Assembly: GCF_000482245.1 (NCBI RefSeq) | Contig: NZ_AWNH01000060.1 | Location: 1 to 64,000 of the forward strand | Length of the DNA: 64,000 nt | Origin: Leptolyngbya sp. Heron Island J | Lineage (GTDB): Bacteria > Cyanobacteriota > Cyanobacteriia > Phormidesmidales > Phormidesmidaceae | Direction of reading: 5' to 3' | Shown here: one piece after another, positions 4,433 to 37,300 of the stretch | How positions within the stretch are numbered: the first letter of the stretch is position 1 | How the letters are laid out: every line of letters starts with the position of its first letter | Translations under genes and position numbers: made by a program | The notes under the pieces: model-generated | The model's input: only the letters and a program-made list of their open reading frames with translations | What the model was told of the DNA's origin: nothing | The model's database searches: none

Positions 4433-6958
4433 TTATCGAGATCGCCGAGAGCGTTTAGATTTTTTTGACTTCGGTGGTGGCCCAAAAAACTCTTGCTCAA
4501 AGGCGTCTGAGTCTTCAAAACCGCCAAAAATGGGCAAAGGGAATCCTTCGCCGGAGGCACCACCAAAGGGACCACCCGGCGGCATGGTTTCTCCCATTTC
4601 AGCGGCCATCATTTCCATAATGATTTGCTCCATTAATTCTGGTGGGACTTCTTCCCCAAACTGAGCCTGGGCCATTTTGGCGATCAGATTCACCATGTCC
4701 TGCATGGAAGGGGGGCGACCTGAGCGACTCATGCTAGACATGGCTGAACGGGTCATGGACTGGGACTGGAGCCATTCTTCATCACGGCAGGCATTTAGGG
4801 CCTCAGCATCCTGTAGCCGCCGAGCCAGGTCAAACCCCTGATCAAACAGTTCCTGATACTCAGGACTTTCGTAGGAAAATGTCGTTGCTTTGGCTAACAG
4901 CAACAGTGGATTTTGAGGTTCTTTGGATAATGCCTGATCTAGCCATGGTAACAATACAGATGTAGTTGTAAACCAACGCACATTCAGCTGTAGCTGGGCA
5001 ATGGCTTGATACGGCTTAGCTGTAGATTGTAGATAGTGATTGATGGGGGTAGTCAGACGATCAGCTTTCTTTTCTTTCACCGTCAGGTACACCAGGTTGG
5101 CAACTTGTGCCTCAGGCTGAGAGTTTATTAGCTGGACCAGCTGAGTGTGATAACGATTTTGCAAAGCGGCAAGGCCCTTTTTCCGTTTGGCATAGAGTGC
5201 CATTACTAAACAAATCGCCTGGAGTACGGGCATCTGTTCAGCCGGGTTTAAGGGGGTCAGCAGCGTCTCCCATTGATTAGCGGCTTTAGTTTGGTCAAAG
5301 GTCACGCGCTGATCTTTATTGGGGGTATCAGTAGCGGCATCGACAAAAATCTTGATGGCACGACTAGGGAAATCATGGCGCTCTAAATTGCCAGTGGCAT
5401 CCTGCAGCATAAAGAAGAGGCGGTAGGTAAAGATTTCCTGCCAGCGAGGAATATCGGGTTCAGTATCCAGATCGCCAAAAGCCTTGCCGTACTGACGCCT
5501 TACCTGCTTGATAGTATCGGTGTCACCGGTTTCTTCGAGACAGTTAATCAGCTCCTCGTAAATGTTGACAAAGCTGGAACCTCCTTTGAGAGCCTGGGTG
5601 AGTAGTGGAATCGCCTGCTGATAGTGCTTCCGTTTTGCCGCCAGCAGTCCCTGGCGACCAATCACAGAAGGCGAGTCGGCAGCCAATTTAATTGCTGGTT
5701 TCAGGGTTTGTTCCGCCTGTCCCAGTTTTTTGAGATTGATTAAATGGTCACAGGTCCAGCAGTGGAGATGGGCCAAAATAGACTGCTGTTGCGGCTTGGT
5801 CCAGGTGGTTTGCGTCTCTACCCATTGGACTAACTTTTTGACAACGCCTATGGCCGCCTGGTCAGCTCCACTTGCAAACATGGCCTGGCGGAGATGAATG
5901 GCAATTTGTGGGTCTTGGAGGGTAGGGGGTAATAAACGAGACCAGAACACCTCAGCATACTCAGGCTCATCCATCCTCATGGCGGCGTCACCAGCCAAGG
6001 TCATCAACGGGTCATGTAACTCCTGGAGTAGAGGAAATGTATTGGCTGTTTCCTTTGAAATGTTGAGAAACATTTGGGCCGCATCATAGACTTCGTCACT
6101 GTCGATCATGCGCAGGGTTTCTAGCACCAAAGCAGATTGCTTTTCTATCGGTGTGAGACCCTCAAGCGGAATATGTTCTGAAAAGTCGTGACTAAAGGTG
6201 TTGGCTAATTGAATCAGGGTCAGCCGGACAATAGCCGGATGCTTGTCATAATTGGGTGTGAAGGTTGAAAAGGGTGATAGGCCCATCAATGGGCGGTTGA
6301 GTCCTAAGGTTTGCTCAGCGTCTGTCCAATGGCCTGCCTGCTGTTTGGCATAGGCTCTCCAGGCAGATGGCCTATCTCCTGGAGTCATTGGACGATTCAC
6401 TTTGTCGAAATGGGCCAGCGCCGCTTCATAGGATTTTTGGGTGAGCGAGAGCAAACCTCGGGCCCAGTGGATATGGACGGCGTAAAAGCGCTGTTTCTTG
6501 GTTTCGATCAGGGTTTCTAGCGTGTCGATGTGATCATTGAGCACCAGCAGCTTGAGATAACATCCTCCCTGCTGCTTGGGCAGTTGTTTGGTGTCGAAGG
6601 CGGTTTGTACCAGGTCTAAAGCTGCCTGGGGCTGGTCCTGTTCAACTAAGCATTTAGCCAGCCAATAGTAGGCTTCACCCTGCTCACCGCAGACCCCCAT
6701 CTCCATGGCTTGCTGCAGGGTTTCCTCGGCTTTGCGGTAATTGCCTTGCTCAGCTTCATTGATACCCCAGGCCAGTAAAATATCTGCTTCGCTCAGCTCG
6801 ATATCACTGAGTTGATTAAGTTTCTGAGCCCGTTTTAACTTTGTCAGTGCCTGTTGATAGAGCCCCTGTTCATAGCATTGGTTAATCTGGTCACCCAACG
6901 ACGACTTTGACAGACTCGATAACTGTTTGAAAGACCGCTTAGAACGTCGCCTACCCAT
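4433..6958 (-). CDS. Large TPR protein of the chaperone operon
   Basis: The 841-residue protein is almost all paired helices of tetratricopeptide type (for example QGNYRKAEETLQQAMEMG near residue 72 and KRKHYQQAIPLLTQALKGG near 440), a scaffold for protein binding. The last 110 residues differ. A Met-rich helix, MQDMVNLIAKMAQAQFGEE and MEQIIMEMMAAEMGE, leads into a Gly/Pro-rich stretch (PPGGPFGGASGEGFPLP) and a Lys/Arg tail; the N-terminus is also basic (MGRRRSKRSFK). This recalls the eukaryotic cochaperones Hip and Hop, which join TPRs to a Gly/Met/Pro segment. There is no signal peptide or membrane helix. ATG at 6958 has a strong AAGGAGGT. First gene of the TPR-J-GrpE-Hsp70 operon. A substrate or Hsp70 adaptor role is inference. 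Confidence 0.85.
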   Translation of the reverse strand: MGRRRSKRSFKQLSSLSKSSLGDQINQCYEQGLYQQALTKLKRAQKLNQLSDIELSEADILLAWGINEAEQGNYRKAEETLQQAMEMGVCGEQGEAYYWLAKCLVEQDQPQAALDLVQTAFDTKQLPKQQGGCYLKLLVLNDHIDTLETLIETKKQRFYAVHIHWARGLLSLTQKSYEAALAHFDKVNRPMTPGDRPSAWRAYAKQQAGHWTDAEQTLGLNRPLMGLSPFSTFTPNYDKHPAIVRLTLIQLANTFSHDFSEHIPLEGLTPIEKQSALVLETLRMIDSDEVYDAAQMFLNISKETANTFPLLQELHDPLMTLAGDAAMRMDEPEYAEVFWSRLLPPTLQDPQIAIHLRQAMFASGADQAAIGVVKKLVQWVETQTTWTKPQQQSILAHLHCWTCDHLINLKKLGQAEQTLKPAIKLAADSPSVIGRQGLLAAKRKHYQQAIPLLTQALKGGSSFVNIYEELINCLEETGDTDTIKQVRRQYGKAFGDLDTEPDIPRWQEIFTYRLFFMLQDATGNLERHDFPSRAIKIFVDAATDTPNKDQRVTFDQTKAANQWETLLTPLNPAEQMPVLQAICLVMALYAKRKKGLAALQNRYHTQLVQLINSQPEAQVANLVYLTVKEKKADRLTTPINHYLQSTAKPYQAIAQLQLNVRWFTTTSVLLPWLDQALSKEPQNPLLLLAKATTFSYESPEYQELFDQGFDLARRLQDAEALNACRDEEWLQSQSMTRSAMSSMSRSGRPPSMQDMVNLIAKMAQAQFGEEVPPELMEQIIMEMMAAEMGETMPPGGPFGGASGEGFPLPIFGGFEDSDAFEQEFFGPPPKSKKSKRSRRSR

Positions 6959-30560: not shown

Positions 30561-30695
30561 ATGAGCGGCGTTGAATTAATTATCTTTTGGGCAGGACCAG
30601 CGGTTGGATTAGCTATTTCTCTGGCTGCCTGGCTCTATGAAGGACATGCCACAGCCCATGGGAATAGTAGTCAGCCTAACCATGATTCGGTTTAA
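30561..30695 (+). CDS. 44-residue membrane peptide coupled to cobU
   Basis: ATG at 30561 follows GGATATACCA and opens a 44-codon frame: one membrane helix (about 4-26, VELIIFWAGPAVGLAISLAA, then WLYEGH) and a hydrophilic tail. Its stop shares one base with the cobU start (TAATG), which argues strongly for translation. It is too short for most gene callers. It resembles no cobalamin protein I know. It might help anchor CobU or a partner at the membrane, which is inference. Confidence 0.6.
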   Translation: MSGVELIIFWAGPAVGLAISLAAWLYEGHATAHGNSSQPNHDSV

Positions 30696-31240
30696 TGTCT
30701 AAGGTGATTTTGGTGACAGGTCCAACCCGTTCTGGTAAGAGTGAATGGGCTGAACATTGGGCTCAACAAAGTCAAAAATCAGTGATTTACATTGCCACCT
30801 CAACAGTATCTGCCGACGATCTTGAGTGGCAGCAGCGTATTGAGCGGCATCAAAAGCGTCGACCCATAGGCTGGCAAACCAAAGAAGTGCCTAAAAACCT
30901 GGTACAAGCTATCCAAGCTGCCGACCAAAACGATTGCTTATTAGTAGATTCTTTGGGGACCTGGTTGGCCAACCTTCTCGATCAGGATGAGTCATTCTGG
31001 TACCAATGTGTTGAGGAACTCATTGCCATTCTCAGTGCGCCTCCTTGTGATGTGATTTTGGTAGCTGAAGAGACTGGTTGGGGCGTGGTGCCTGCCCATC
31101 CCCTGGGGCGTATATTTCGGGATCGGCTTGGGGATTTGGTGCGACGGGTTGGTGCGATCTCAACTCAAGTCTATCTAGTTACGGGTGGTTATGCCCTCGA
31201 CCTAACGCAGTTCGGTACACCGCTGCCGCCCAAGGCTTAA
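30695..31240 (+). CDS. cobU: Adenosylcobinamide kinase/guanylyltransferase
   Basis: The 181-residue bifunctional enzyme phosphorylates adenosylcobinamide and transfers GMP to it, late in cobalamin assembly or salvage. P-loop GPTRSGKSEWAEHW (about residues 8-21) lies at the N-terminus; the guanylate-accepting His is in RIERHQKRRP; LLVDSLGTWLANLL and VAEETGWGVVPAHPLGRIFRDRLG are family blocks. Length is normal. Its start overlaps the 44-residue peptide stop. No other cob genes are in the window, as usual for scattered cyanobacterial pathways. Confidence 0.95.
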   Translation: MSKVILVTGPTRSGKSEWAEHWAQQSQKSVIYIATSTVSADDLEWQQRIERHQKRRPIGWQTKEVPKNLVQAIQAADQNDCLLVDSLGTWLANLLDQDESFWYQCVEELIAILSAPPCDVILVAEETGWGVVPAHPLGRIFRDRLGDLVRRVGAISTQVYLVTGGYALDLTQFGTPLPPKA

Positions 31241-31423
31241 TCTTTTGGCGAAGGACGGCAGCATGAGAACAGGGGAATGAATCAGAACCATCTGAATATG
31301 TGCACATATCACATACATTGAGAATAGGTTAACGTCTGCGTTCTTCTAAAAATGGAGCGTTAGGATAAAACTGTGACAGTCAACGTGCTGTAGTAAATGT
31401 TGTTTCACAGTACGAGGTGGTCT

Positions 31424-31924
31424 ATGGCGTCCCTTAGAGAAGTTCAAGATTATTTAGCTTATTGGTTCCAGCTAGGTAAATCGGTGCACATCAAGAATGG
31501 GCGGAGTATTCAGAGACCAATTCCAGTATTAGAAGGTCATCAATTTAGCCGGGCGTTTCAAGATTGCTGGCGATCAATTATGGCTATTGAGGGTCGTGAT
31601 TGTTACCTGGAAGGTACTCAGGAGACTATTGAGCAGCTGCTATCCCCGCAATGGGAAATTACTAGTTGTCCCCGCTGTAGCATTCCAACAGCCATGTCTG
31701 CAGTGATGCCAGTGGCTCAGCTTTGCCCCTGTGGCGATATCGATACTTGGCCCAATGATGACCTGCCTGCTCCTCACATGCCAATTAATAACAGAAGACA
31801 CTTTAGTCGGCTGAAAACGCGGCTAAATGAGCATCCTCGCTGTGATCAGCCCCATAAATGCGCATCTGAAGATCATCAGCCTGGTGATGTCAGCAAAGTT
31901 GTTGTTAACAACGATGAAAAATAG
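31424..31924 (+). CDS. Zinc-ribbon-like cyanobacterial protein
   Basis: The 166-residue product has an N-terminal helical part (SLREVQDYLAYWFQLGKSV) with EGHQFSRAFQDCW, a four-Cys ribbon (SCPRCSIP and LCPCGDI, about residues 80-105) and a hydrophilic His/Cys-containing tail. The Cys pairs suggest a bound zinc. I recall related short proteins in other cyanobacteria with no role given. ATG at 31424 follows GAGGTGG; a start at 31397 would add nine residues. Confidence 0.65.
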   Translation: MASLREVQDYLAYWFQLGKSVHIKNGRSIQRPIPVLEGHQFSRAFQDCWRSIMAIEGRDCYLEGTQETIEQLLSPQWEITSCPRCSIPTAMSAVMPVAQLCPCGDIDTWPNDDLPAPHMPINNRRHFSRLKTRLNEHPRCDQPHKCASEDHQPGDVSKVVVNNDEK

Positions 31925-31978
31925 ACATGGGCAGCTCCCTATTGTCGAGGGGTTTGTCAGCCCTCGCTTTATGAGTGA

Positions 31979-32914
31979 TCAGCTCACCGTTCGCTCTACG
32001 TCATGAACGTAAAAGTCGTGGGCCATCAGTGTATTTGGGAAAATTGCTTTAGCTTCTGACAGTAAGTCCTTAAGCTGAATTGTGTTGCCAGGGGCGTAAC
32101 GAGGGCTAAAGTGAGTGAGGATTAGTTGGTTCACTTGGGCGGCTAGAGCGACCTGAGCCGCCATAGTAGATGTGGAATGGAGTCGCTGATAGGCTAGCTC
32201 AGCATCCTGGTGGGCAAAGGTCGATTCGTGGATGAGTACACTGGCGTGTTCGGAGAGTTCAATAGCGCGATCGCAAAAAATCGTATCGGTGCAGTACACC
32301 AATTTTCTACCCTGAATAGTCTCTCCGCACAGCTCAGTACCATTAATCATGCGACCATCCGGCAGAGTTACCACCTCACCGCGTTTCAGCCGTCCATAGA
32401 TCGGTCCTGGTGCAATTCCTAATGCTGTAGCCCGTTTGACATCAAAATGACCTACGCGATCTTTTTCCACAATACGATAGCCAAAGGCTGGAACCCGATG
32501 CTCTAGTCGCTGACAATAAACCGTAAACTCACCGTCATCCAGTACCTTGCCAGGTTCTACCGTATGCACCTTAAACGGATAGGACAGATGGGTTTGGGAG
32601 TAACGACGGCAAGCCTGCAAATACTCATTCAATTTGGGCGGACCATAAATATCAATCCGCGATACGTTGCCTGCTAGGCCACAGCTAGCCAATAGCCCCA
32701 TCAGGCCAAAAATATGATCACCGTGCATATGGGTGATAAAAATGCGGCGAATCTGGCTAGACTTCAAGTCGCTTTTGAGAAACTGATGTTGGGTGCCTTC
32801 ACCACAATCCAGGAGCCATACTTCCGCACGCTGAGGCAGTCGCAGCGCAACGCTTGACACATTGCGTGCCCTAGTAGGAACACCGGAACTCGTACCAAGA
32901 AACGTAATTTGCAA
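31979..32914 (-). CDS. rnz: Ribonuclease Z
   Basis: The 311-residue metallo-beta-lactamase-fold enzyme trims the 3' ends of tRNA precursors. [17 protein letters not shown] (residues 4-20) and the zinc motif [11 protein letters not shown] (about 61-71) are diagnostic; further ligands come from the His in HRVPAFGY, the Asp in CTDTIFCDR and HFSPRY. The flexible exosite arm is present around 150-190. Length fits the short RNase Z form. ATG at 32914. Its promoter lies in the region next to the candidate sRNA. Confidence 0.96.
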
Positions 32915-33250
32915 GGGAAAATAGGGAGAATTGGAGAACAGGGCTGGCAGACCTCCCTCATTATCATCGACAGAGGCTAGATTTGAGTGTGACCTTGCTG
33001 TGTCAAGCTCGTTGACCTAAGTTAGCTCCACAAAACAACGACGTCGCCAGATACGGACAAAGTTTATACAAAATCTAGGGTTTTTCCCGTTAATGCATCA
33101 AGATTTCCTGACTTTTCTTTTGTCTTATTAATTTAGTTTGATGGGTCAACGCATTGGATGGCAACCTTTGAGTAGTTTTACTGAGTAACTACTACATGAA
33201 CTCATCGCAATTTAGTAAAGATTCATCACAGAAAAAAGTGTACTGATTGT
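32915..33250. other. Intergenic region upstream of rnz
   Basis: About 335 AT-rich bases holding the rnz promoter on the minus strand and upstream sequence of the candidate sRNA on the plus strand. No ORF. TAGTTTTACTGAGTAACTAC near 33174 forms a weak imperfect hairpin. Confidence 0.4.
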
Positions 33251-33257
33251 TACAATG
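33250..33257 (+). promoter_or_regulatory. HLR1-like half-site over -10 box
   Basis: GTTACAAT at 33249/50-33256 includes TACAAT, a fair -10 box (33251-33256), and matches the HLR1 half-site used by the response regulator RpaB. The second half-site is poor. This position would allow repression until high light, as for Synechocystis psrR1; that analogy is inference. Confidence 0.35.
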
Positions 33258-33262
33258 TCGTA

Positions 33263-33371
33263 CGGAGATTGATTAGACAGTGCGCACCCCGCATTTTCAA
33301 CCACCTCCAAATGAGAGATAAACGCAAAGTCAAAAGACTTTTTAAATCGGTTCTGCAAGGGACCGATTTTT
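33263..33371 (+). ncRNA. Candidate sRNA, PsrR1-like
   Basis: A transcript starting about seven bases after TACAAT would be near 109 nt and end at a clean intrinsic terminator: TCGGTTC (33347-33353), loop TGCAAG, GGACCGA (33360-33366), then TTTTTCTTTT. Between lies an unpaired CAACCACCTCCAAATGAG, complementary to a Shine-Dalgarno GGAGG. No ORF or gene on the plus strand explains this terminator. Size, layout and the ACCTCC core recall PsrR1 (SyR1), which silences photosystem I and phycobilisome mRNAs in high light. I recall the PsrR1 sequence only loosely, so homology is unproven. Confidence 0.45.
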
Positions 33372-33376
33372 CTTTT
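33347..33376 (+). terminator. Intrinsic terminator of candidate sRNA
   Basis: Seven-base stem with one G-U, six-base loop, T5CT4 tail. In the reverse direction the tail is only TTTA, so it is better suited to the plus strand; it may also help end the minus-strand gene at 33432. Confidence 0.75.
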
Positions 33377-33431
33377 CGCAAATTATTCTGAATTACTTTA
33401 CGGCTGGACTATTGAGAAAAGCCATAGTTGC

Positions 33432-34265
33432 CTAGTTGTTGGAGCCCTGCGGCTTAACTAAAGCCTGCTGGAGATAGTGAATAAAATGATCGGTAGCATG
33501 CTCAATTAGAGCAGGCCGGATGCGTTGACGATAGGTGCGATTAAATATGCTGCCCTTAATTACATCGCGTTTGATTAATAGATAGGCCCGAATTCGTTCA
33601 GAAATACGTGAACGGACTTCTGAACCATTAATAATCATGCCTTCAGGGGATACCCTGGCACCAAACATATCCACCAGGTAACGCCGCACGGTGTTGGCGT
33701 AGTTTAGCCAGCGAGCTTCCAGAATAGCGGCTTTGACTGACAAGTCAGGGGTTTCGTACAGCAGTCGTCCAACGGCAAAGGCCACTAGGTCAGATGCATA
33801 GTCTTGTTCAGATGCAAATTTGTTTAACAGGTCGTTGAAAAGCTCTGGCTGATAGTTGGCAGCACCTTGTTTGTCGAGATACACCTCAATGGGTTGGGCT
33901 GTATCACCAATGGCGGCAGTATATTCACGACTGTCATAGCCCCGTCCAGTGAACACCTTTGACGTGACCCACAGAAAACCATCTGTGAGGGTGGACTTCA
34001 GGTTGCCTCCCCAAGTTTGGTCTGATAAGGCTGCCATAAAGTGAGCAAAGTCAATACTCTGCTCCATAAGCACAACGGATTGGTTGTCCAACTCACCGCT
34101 GATGAAGTCCGGATTGCTACCCGCTACCATCTCCCAAAATCTATTGGCATAGGAAGCGCGGGTGTAAGCCCGCAAAGACCGCACAATTTGAATTGATGAT
34201 TGCCGGGGGCGCTGCTGCTGGTAATCGTCAATAAACTGCAGCATTTTGTCCAAAGGTGCTGACAT
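33432..34265 (-). CDS. Conserved hypothetical protein
   Basis: The 277-residue soluble, mainly helical protein has no signal peptide or membrane segment. Recognisable stretches are SIQIVRSLRAYTRASYANRF, VLMEQSIDFAHFMAALSDQT and YRQRIRPALIEHATDHFIHY. I do not recognise a domain. The length and well-mixed composition argue for a genuine gene. ATG at 34265 is preferred; GTG at 34280 adds five residues. It lies 100 bp downstream of the giant membrane protein gene and could be cotranscribed with it. Confidence 0.7.
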   Translation of the reverse strand: MSAPLDKMLQFIDDYQQQRPRQSSIQIVRSLRAYTRASYANRFWEMVAGSNPDFISGELDNQSVVLMEQSIDFAHFMAALSDQTWGGNLKSTLTDGFLWVTSKVFTGRGYDSREYTAAIGDTAQPIEVYLDKQGAANYQPELFNDLLNKFASEQDYASDLVAFAVGRLLYETPDLSVKAAILEARWLNYANTVRRYLVDMFGARVSPEGMIINGSEVRSRISERIRAYLLIKRDVIKGSIFNRTYRQRIRPALIEHATDHFIHYLQQALVKPQGSNN

Positions 34266-34367
34266 TGGTTCACACGGCACAGGTAACTATGGATGCTAGG
34301 TTAGCGCTAAATGGTAAGGCCGTTAGCCATGATGAATGGCTTATTTACCCAAATTTGTGGGGGTGAT

Positions 34368-37300
34368 CTACTCCCAGCTGCCGAGCAGGTCAGACCAGTG
34401 ATTGAGAAGCTGACTAATCTGGGTCCGGCGTGCTTCAAATGTGGCGGCTACCCAAATGAGGGCAATACCGAGCAGAATGCCGATAGCCCAGAGCAGGCGA
34501 CCATCGGTACTGATAAATATTGTGATGGTACGCAATATTTGTAGGACAAAGGTGAGGGTCCCGGTATAGAGATAGGCGCGTACCTGCATCATCAGACCAA
34601 TGCCAATAAAGCCTCCACTAATCAGCAGACTCAGGCCGATAAACAGGGGGGAAGTCGTTTCAGCCTGAAACAAAGCTGTTAGCCCTATCAGTAGGGTGGC
34701 AAAGCTTCGTAAACGATGGCGTTCTTGACGAGCTGAAACAGGTTGCCAGTGAGAATCTACTTCGAGGATGTACAACACGGATAGCCCTAGCATGGTGCCT
34801 AGCCATAGTGGCGTCATCCATCCCTGGTTGATGAGGTAGCGTAATAATGACCAGTTGAGTAATCCCAAGCTGATATAGCTCAGGCGGACTGCCCGCCACT
34901 GTTTAGCCATGAGTGCATAAAAGGCTCCCACCAGTAGCAGGCTCTGGGTTTTCACCGTAAGTATGCTGAGAAGAGTTGCCATGACTGGCCAACTCAAGGC
35001 CATGCGTTGCCAGGGGCGTATAGGCCATCCCCAGCGTTGCCAGGGTAATCTGAGTATGATCAGGCTCAGACCACAGGTCAGTAATGCTCCCCAGCCCCCA
35101 ATAAACGTTGGATTTGGTAGCAGCTGCACCGTGCCGTAGGGCAGGCTAATGGTGGCGATTATCAAACCACTCCAGGTCCATTGTTGTTGGTTTGGACGGC
35201 GATCGCTGGGGGCATCGTTAAGCTCCGGGGCAGAAACCCAGTGATAGTTACCTCGGAGTCCGGCATAGAGGATCAACAAACTGGCTGTGCTTAGCCAAAG
35301 CCATAGGCCTAGACGACTATGACCGCTGACCATGGCTATGGCGGCTAATGTCACCGCTAGCAACCAATGGAATAGCGAGACGATATTGACTTCAGTGGCT
35401 GTCAGCTGGCTGTAACGTTGCACCCAGCGATGGCAGAGCAAATACAGAGCTGCGATCGCACTTCCTACCAAGGCTAGTAACGTGAATCCATCCCCTGGCT
35501 GCCCACCACTAGTCTGTAGCATCCGGTATATCACCAGCTCATAGATACCCAGGGAAAGCAGCCCAAGACCGCCATACCTTAAAGGGTGTAAATCCGCTTG
35601 GCGGCTACCGATGGCCAGGGTCACAATACCCACAACAATTGCATAGAAACCGGTGGCTGCTGTGAAGCTTAGATGTCCCAGTGCTAGACCTAGAGCACCG
35701 TAAGTCAACGGGATGTAGTGCCAGCTTGATGGATAAGTTGGCTGTCTTCTGGCTACAGAGAGTGTGCCTAGCAGCTGGGTTAAGAGCCCCAATGCCACCA
35801 TGGCAGCTCCTAATATTTGAGGACTGCTCTCCTGTTGCCAAAGCAGTAGCCCCATGGTCACTAGCAGTCCTACCCCAAAGGCCAGCTCCCAGTAGTTGAG
35901 ATTTGTTAGCCGTTTGCTGACCAATCTCGATAGCAATAGGATGACGGCTGCTATACCGTAGCGTAAAAATAATTCAGTTCCACTAGCGCCGATAATCCAA
36001 TCGATGAAATTGGGACCCAGACTATAGACGAGGGCCGTGATCAGAGTAAGGCCGAGATGTAATGCGATCGCTAACGTTTGACTCCAGCCCTGGCTGGCCG
36101 CACCGTAGGCTTGTAGCAAGGGCCGTGATTGGCGGCTGAGCTGTCGAGCCAGAATGCTAAGAATAGAGGCCAAGAAGGCCACGACTAGAAGGAACTGAGC
36201 ACTCTTCTCCGGCCATGCTGGTGACAGCAGCCAAAGAGCACCCGTATGACCACCCCCAACAGCAAAGCCCACGGCCAGGACGGGCAGCGACGGTTGCCTA
36301 GGCCAGCGACAGCTATGGATTAGCAGGAGTCCAGCCCCTGTAAATAAGGCAATCGTAGCTGTCTGCCAGGAACTGAGCAGGAAAAGCTGTCCCCCTAAAG
36401 CCACGACCGCCAGTGTTGTGATCTGTTGGGGAGAACTGGCTTCCCGTCGGTAGAGCAGCCAAGTCAGTACCCCAGGCACTACCAACCAGCTCAGGTTGAA
36501 CCAGCTACTCCAGGTGTTTAGCAAAAGGCTGTAAGCGATGACACTTAGTCCAATGCCCAGATACCAGGCTGACTGGCGACATTGCGGGTAACGAGTATCA
36601 GCAACACTGATGCACCATTCCACTGTTGTCAGGCCCAGAAAGATCAGAGCGTATTGCCAGGTACTCCAGTTGCCCAACCAGCCGCTGATAATATCCACAC
36701 CACTGAGGCAGGTAACAATCGCTGATAGGTGGGTGCTGTAAATTAGCCATTTAGTAGCAGGTCGACGCAGACGGGTAATCATCCCGAGCGTGAGCGTTTG
36801 CCCAATCAGACTTAGCATTAACAAAAATGATTGAGCCTGGGGTAGTGTACAAAGCACCAATACGGGACTGATGCCAATGGCTAGTTTCTCAGTCAGCTGT
36901 GCCCAGGCAATCTGGTCTCTTTGCCGAAAACTTTTAGCTCCCAGCAGCATCACCCCGACATAGCCATACATCCACAAACCTGCAAAATGAATGGCGTTGA
37001 CAGGTGCGATGCCAAAGCGTTCAACTACCGTGAGCAGGGTCTGTCGGAGGCCGATGGGTAAGGTTAACCAAACTAATCCACAGGCCTGCAGTCCGATCAG
37101 CCACAGCAGATATAAGGTACGCAGCTGATGACCTATTTCAGGTTGGTGTTTTAAGCGTCTCAGCAGGAGCCAAACTGCTAAGCCACTGACCCCTAATGCC
37201 TGCATTGGCTGCTGTGGAATGGTGACCAGCCAGCCGAAGAACATTAACCCTGCCCCTACCTGAGGCCACAGGGGATAGTGCAGTCTTAGGAGCATCCATC

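Follow-up and report, generated by a model that had tools for sequence, protein, structure and literature searches.

A predicted small RNA of a broad cyanobacterial family, distinct from PsrR1, beside rnz in Leptolyngbya sp. Heron Island J

The genome of Leptolyngbya sp. Heron Island J very probably encodes, as judged by sequence comparison, a regulatory-type RNA of approximately 114 nt that belongs to a broad family in cyanobacteria. It is not PsrR1, the small RNA (sRNA) that is induced by high light and targets psaL, psaJ, chlN and cpcA, since membership of the corresponding Rfam family, RF02701, was tested and not found. The RNA was first proposed in a sequence-only reading of the window (that is, the whole stretch of 64,000 nucleotides analysed here), and the existence of an sRNA gene is well supported by promoter, terminator, covariation and breadth of conservation. 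The locus has the general features of trans-encoded sRNAs, namely its own promoter, an intrinsic terminator, a position in an intergenic gap and the lack of a conserved open reading frame (ORF), and we put at roughly 0.6 the probability that it is a free-standing, trans-encoded small regulatory RNA gene, the product of which base-pairs with mRNAs through an open patch. The computed evidence, described below, comprises the anatomy and conservation of the gene, the covariation of its hairpin and terminator, its membership of the family and the lack of a PsrR1 match.

Results

Anatomy of the locus

The window lies on contig C60 of the host genome (G000; 8.06 Mb). The element occupies a gap (32915-33431) bounded by two minus-strand genes, rnz (31979-32914) and an ORF of 282 aa (33432-34280) that has no Pfam match at E<=0.001. 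The sequence-only reading had described a -10 box, a transcribed stretch and a strong terminator without a plus-strand gene; these are borne out at 33239-33376 (+), and both its coordinates and its description of the element are correct (Table 1). A gene that we take from its sequence to be cobU-like lies near rnz both in the window (30695-31240, +) and in locus L097 (269-817), a shared neighbourhood.

Table 1. Features of the predicted sRNA gene, in window coordinates
Feature	Position	Strand	Basis
Upstream element GTAAAGATTCATCACAGAAAA, possible activator site	33215-33235	+	raised information content in 45 non-redundant members; function putative
Core promoter TGTACTGATTGTTACAAT, conserved TGT then extended -10 TGT-TACAAT (33248-33256)	33239-33256	+	conserved columns
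Predicted sRNA, about 114 nt	33263-33376	+	start placed about 7 nt past the -10 (predicted)
5' GGAG, predicted partner CUCC 33305-33308	33264-33267	+	folding; covariation not above shuffles
Internal hairpin AGUGCG..CGCAUU	33279-33295	+	folding; hairpin of the wider alignment covaries
ACCTCC, anti-Shine-Dalgarno-like motif	33303-33308	+	conserved in genus; predicted mostly paired
Conserved GAGAGATAAACG patch, likely recognition site (putative)	33313-33324	+	alignments, accessibility
Small hairpin AAAGUC-AAAA-GACUUU	33326-33341	+	folding, congener alignment
Intrinsic terminator	33344-33376	+	folding; helix covaries across 38 sequences

The TACAAT at 33251-33256 has TGT directly before it and so forms an extended -10; a scan for two-box sigma-70 promoters called none at this site. 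Across 45 non-redundant members of the family the columns of TGT and TG.TACAAT carry the commonest base in 39-45 sequences, and an upstream element with a consensus close to GWAAGWTTTATRACAAAA is visible in the same set. At the other end, the terminator stem (33344-33369) has 11 pairs and a loop of 4, followed by TTCTTTT, and has the most pairs among six terminator-like sites in 31000-36000, a region for which shuffles average 4.5 sites of any kind. The RNA from 33267 to 33376 folds at -26.2 kcal/mol (z -3.36), and one of 200 shuffles was equally good.

Only one plus-strand ORF in the gap reaches 40 aa (33269-33391, TTG start), and it might be read as a small-protein gene in place of an RNA gene, given that its 40 aa span the element and that ATG AGA GAT AAA occurs within the conserved core. 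Against this, the frame reads through the terminator and is broken by small indels among the congeners, the ATG is missing in L006 and L009, and no conserved reading frame was found in the aligned relatives. We rejected this explanation, which is extremely improbable.

Distribution of the family

The DNA of the element is present in all seven congeners with 87-91% identity, and G011, which belongs to another genus, has a 35-base match at the same rnz/282-aa locus. Promoter and core (CTCCA..TGAGAGAT.AACGCAAAGTC) are nearly invariant among nine aligned sequences, from which covariance model R1 was made; it matches 41 of 63 genomes of the window's family at E<=1e-3. Model R2, composed of six of the nine and 19 new R1 matches, matches 97 of the 388 genomes of the class at the same threshold. 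Model R3, built from 38 sequences with a structure supplied by hand, matches 192 of the 388 cyanobacterial genomes, representing 93 of 159 genera, at E<=0.1, and 37 of its 38 training genomes fall among those searched. By hand count 182 of the 388 are matched at E<=1e-3, with ten more between 1e-3 and 0.1, although the E-values are rough; the remaining 206 have no R3 match at E<=1e-3. Within the window's own family R3 matches 57 of 60 genomes at E<=0.1 (three of them at E>1e-3), and the three that it misses are genomes 61-83% complete. Besides the element itself, R3 matches the host genome at two other places at E<=0.1, and these may be paralogues. When the core pattern GAGAGATNAACGCAAAGTC was sought in the 388 genomes with two mismatches allowed, the matches beyond the genus and G011 carried one or two mismatches, at a frequency that looks about that of a reversed control.

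The family does not correspond to any Rfam family in the members scanned. No match in the window reached the gathering score, and no Rfam family fitted the RNA in any of the 46 members covered (of 78), comprising ten loci at E<=1 and sets of 18 and 17 at gathering, while the window locus and nine of these were also scanned at E<=10. The matches above cut-off were two neighbouring tRNAs and two PsrR1 controls only; at E<=10 a few weak matches overlap the RNA or promoter, far below their cut-offs. In 33150-33450 the best-scoring match over the element at E<=10 is to GibS, whose 19.9 bits (E 1.3) fall far short of the cut-off of 115, and it was discarded as a chance match. A search of main texts, mostly outside subscription journals, with letter strings from the family returned only papers that are unrelated as judged by title.

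Gene order provides a separate line of evidence. Upstream of the sRNA, on the same strand and within the fetched flank, rqcH (NFACT) is found in 42 of 78 members, one per genome, with NFACT domains confirmed for L020; nine other members lie between rnz and the 282-aa gene, one lies beside rnz only and 26 have none of these neighbours. Ten of 17 R3 matches outside the training set, hand-picked from those listed, are likewise linked to rqcH. Synteny formed no part of the covariance models, and the rqcH linkage is independent support for the family. In six loci (L090, L091, L102, L103, L312 and L316) the sRNA is found not by rqcH but near a recurrent ORF (..ALKEWAVAVDAL..) or a pyruvate kinase-like gene, the name being one that we presume for some neighbours from their sequence. 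With such neighbours in place of rqcH, the sRNA gene seems to have been relocated more than once.

Structural conservation

Covariation was tested on MAFFT alignment A6, which contains 38 sequences. Across the whole structure 84.2% of cells pair, compared with 76.1% in shuffles and 29-51% when the structure is slid, a comparison that favours the unslid version because the tested structure was derived partly from the fold of one row. The terminator has 60 cells changed on both sides against 15.4 in shuffles, and the internal hairpin 26 against 13.8, neither value being reached in any of 500 shuffles; when pairs rather than cells changed on both sides are counted, the internal hairpin is not above shuffles (242/500), and likewise by some other measures. 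In many distant relatives this position is taken by a longer hairpin that contains UUGGGAACGCGCA. For the 5' GGAG:CUCC helix the figure is 78.9% against 78.2% in shuffles, of which 175 of 500 are as good. The idea of a covarying GGAG:CUCC helix was therefore rejected, as it is not above shuffles when counted alone, and the helix is retained as a prediction from folding.

Two candidate interaction sites

The sequence-only reading had singled out ACCTCC, within CAACCACCTCCAAATGAG (33298-33315), as an open seed for Shine-Dalgarno sites and had proposed its conservation in relatives as a check. The motif is kept in all eight sequences of the genus, so that this much of the expectation stands, but it has become TTCTCC in L009, of the next genus. 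Many distant members have YUUCYUCC at the position, and in the f32 genomes fetched (L304-L307 and L321) a GGUUUUGACUCU-type sequence replaces the CUCC motif. An open seed is doubtful, because the motif is predicted to be mostly paired, with an unpaired fraction of 0.20 in the window and a mean of 0.27 over the 67 of 78 members in which it was located. The corresponding fractions for the GAGA patch are 0.56 and 0.58 (67/78 members), while in L009 the patch is predicted to be mostly paired (0.18 unpaired). Hence, on grounds of predicted accessibility, we infer that the GAGA patch is the recognition site and that the role of CUCC is conditional. Many relatives have GAGAGAACAACG in place of GAGAGATAAACG, and an exact complement of the patch, sought in the window, was found only opposite the patch itself.

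The patch varies between lineages and would also suit a protein-binding site. The RNA might accordingly be a sponge or scaffold: an RNA-binding protein would attach to the GAGA..ACAACG patch and be titrated or carried by the RNA, with no pairing to mRNA. Both the greater accessibility of the patch relative to the CU motif and its retention over distant families, while much else varies, are consistent with such a role; however, a CUCC-type motif is also retained in many lineages and no protein partner is known, and we regard a sponge or scaffold as unlikely, though worth bearing in mind beside the preferred reading of an RNA that pairs with mRNAs.

The promoter and the HLR1 motif

An HLR1 motif in the core promoter was reportedly linked to psrR1 by Kadowaki in 2016. 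The motif recognized by RpaB is KTTACAWW-N2-KTTACAWW (PMC13421787). In our promoter GTTACAAT constitutes one full HLR1 half, and 43 of 45 members match it at 7 or 8 of 8 positions, whereas ten bases further upstream the octamer fits no better than background (a mean of 3.7 positions against 3.4). HLR1 is unproven here, because the upstream octamer is at background and the matching octamer is itself the extended -10, and a two-half HLR1 site is not supported by the promoter sequences. A scan of the host genome for HLR1 with up to two mismatches returned 206 sites, compared with 253 for a reversed control; among 30 of the sites inspected, one preceded a terminator, without a CU motif. Two identical sites with two mismatches are psbA promoters (C17:44184, L352 1485, +; and C20:8530, L353, -) that share the near-HLR1 sequence TTTACAAAAGTTTACGGT, as expected under RpaB control in this genome.

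Comparison with PsrR1

The suggestion that the element is a PsrR1 homologue is not supported, as RF02701 has no match here and alignment scores equal those of shuffles. A search with this covariance model, the check that had been proposed, gave no match at 33150-33450 even at E<=10, and none was found in ten family loci at E<=10 or in sets of 18 and 17 at gathering. The same model recovered positive controls from Synechocystis-like loci (L355, 68.6 bits; L356, 60.2 bits; cut-off 42). In Synechocystis 6803 SyR1 lies in the spacer between fabF and hoxH, and its oligonucleotides have been published (Voss et al. 2009, PMC2662882). Control loci were located among 388 genomes with a 22-mer from a published SyR1 oligonucleotide, which matched six genomes. 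Three of these belong to genus g55, namely G257 and G293 with exact matches and G123 with two mismatches; in the remaining three the surrounding sequence is not SyR1-like. The second SyR1 oligonucleotide is found 85 nt upstream in both L354 and L355, and L355 is placed between a ketoacyl synthase gene and hoxH. The host genome has 0 matches to the 22-mer with up to three mismatches, and no similarity to SyR1, its UUCUCCUAGAUAUG region included, was found.

In the reverse direction, R3 finds nothing in the PsrR1 loci by default, and nothing at their place with filters off; R2 with filters off aligns only 12-17 bases at the PsrR1 terminators (E 6.9 or more) and has better-scoring matches elsewhere in the same loci. 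Local alignment of PsrR1 with 78 members yields a mean score of 14.15, compared with 13.88 for dinucleotide shuffles (57 of 200 as high), and a best score of 21 compared with 20.4 (80 of 200). By the same test the window RNA against members from outside the genus exceeds all 200 shuffles, and two distant groups within the family give a weaker signal (3/200 on the mean, 42/200 on the best). The test is blind to Synechocystis-like PsrR1 against a candidate from S. elongatus, so that very remote kinship could be missed if that candidate is PsrR1.

The candidate in question is an sRNA-like element between thiG-like and secreted-protein genes (L266 ~6330-6481, +; L273 near 1501-1650, -). It has a CU-rich segment and an almost perfect HLR1 site (GTTACAAA-AG-TTTACAGA), and may be the PsrR1 of the S. 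elongatus-like lineage. It was chosen by means of coordinates in PMC6091082, a presumed orientation and the HLR1 site. As a PsrR1 control, L266 ~6350-6481 was set aside because RF02701 misses its close relative L273 at E<=10, and it is unlike Synechocystis-like PsrR1 in the alignment test. R3 with filters off gives a near whole-length alignment in L273 (7.8 bits, E 0.24) that is the best of 12 kb and not significant. BLAST of the L266 candidate in 53 genomes matched G034 at 2e-63 and all others at E 0.0028 or more; seven of the weaker matches were inspected and none resembled the RNA.

Several features could nevertheless be explained if the element were PsrR1, or a strongly diverged orthologue, that represses photosynthesis mRNAs in high light: its similar size, its CU-rich Shine-Dalgarno-complementary element, the GTTACAAT-type half-site in the core promoter, the order GGUUUC-CUCC-AUUGA that some members have in common with the RF02701 consensus, and the lack of an R3 match in four Synechocystis-like genomes of genus g55. 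RF02701 has no match here or in the tested family loci, R3 misses PsrR1, alignment to the 78 members equals shuffles and the upstream HLR1 octamer is at background, and we rejected this identity as improbable. A common origin is equally improbable: a single ancestral sRNA under light or redox control would have split into two diverging lines, one being the widespread form that is often linked to rqcH and the other PsrR1, as a local derivative in Synechocystis. Such an origin is allowed by the lack of family matches in g55 and the shared GGUUUC-CUCC-AUUGA order, and no alignment supports it.

Discussion

Returning to a regulatory RNA that base-pairs with mRNAs, we infer transcription, start site, mode of pairing, targets and regulation from the features above. 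The extended -10 promoter, preceded by conserved sequence, would direct initiation near 33263, and transcription would end at the terminator near 33376, giving an RNA in which a 5' domain with a hairpin is followed by the mostly unpaired GAGAGAUAAACG patch and then the terminator. Most likely the open patch would act by pairing with target mRNAs, and ACCUCC, predicted to be paired with the 5' GGAG, could bind Shine-Dalgarno sequences once opened. About half of the sampled cyanobacterial genomes have this RNA, with its conserved promoter and open patch, and the members scanned have no match in Rfam 15; its wide spread and the conservation of promoter and patch make it a good candidate for a core regulator at the post-transcriptional level. 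With the covariance model the family can be sought directly in strains for which dRNA-seq data already exist, and the gene, often situated behind rqcH, is easy to locate and delete.

Among known systems, the Yfr2 family resembles this one in being a widely conserved family of cyanobacterial sRNAs and differs, by description only, in its size, loop and 5' end; Yfr2a has approximately 80 nt, a central loop of 12 nt and a conserved unpaired 5' end (PMC2662882). Yfr1 is likewise pan-cyanobacterial and has a conserved CUCC-containing motif that is presumably unpaired, but it is shorter (54-57 nt in PMC4734099, 65 nt in PMC6202907), its motif CACUCCUCACACC is absent from 33239-33376, and the window has no Rfam match to it at gathering. 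PsrR1, of 131 nt (PMC6202907), differs in that covariance models find no match in either direction, in that its seed UUGAGUUCUCCUA is absent here, and in its neighbours, which are fabF and hoxH in Synechocystis, compared with rnz here and rqcH in 42 of 78 relatives. Like the element, PsrR1 (SyR1) is a free-standing sRNA of comparable size that has a promoter and a terminator of its own and, before the terminator, a CU-rich, Shine-Dalgarno-complementary stretch.
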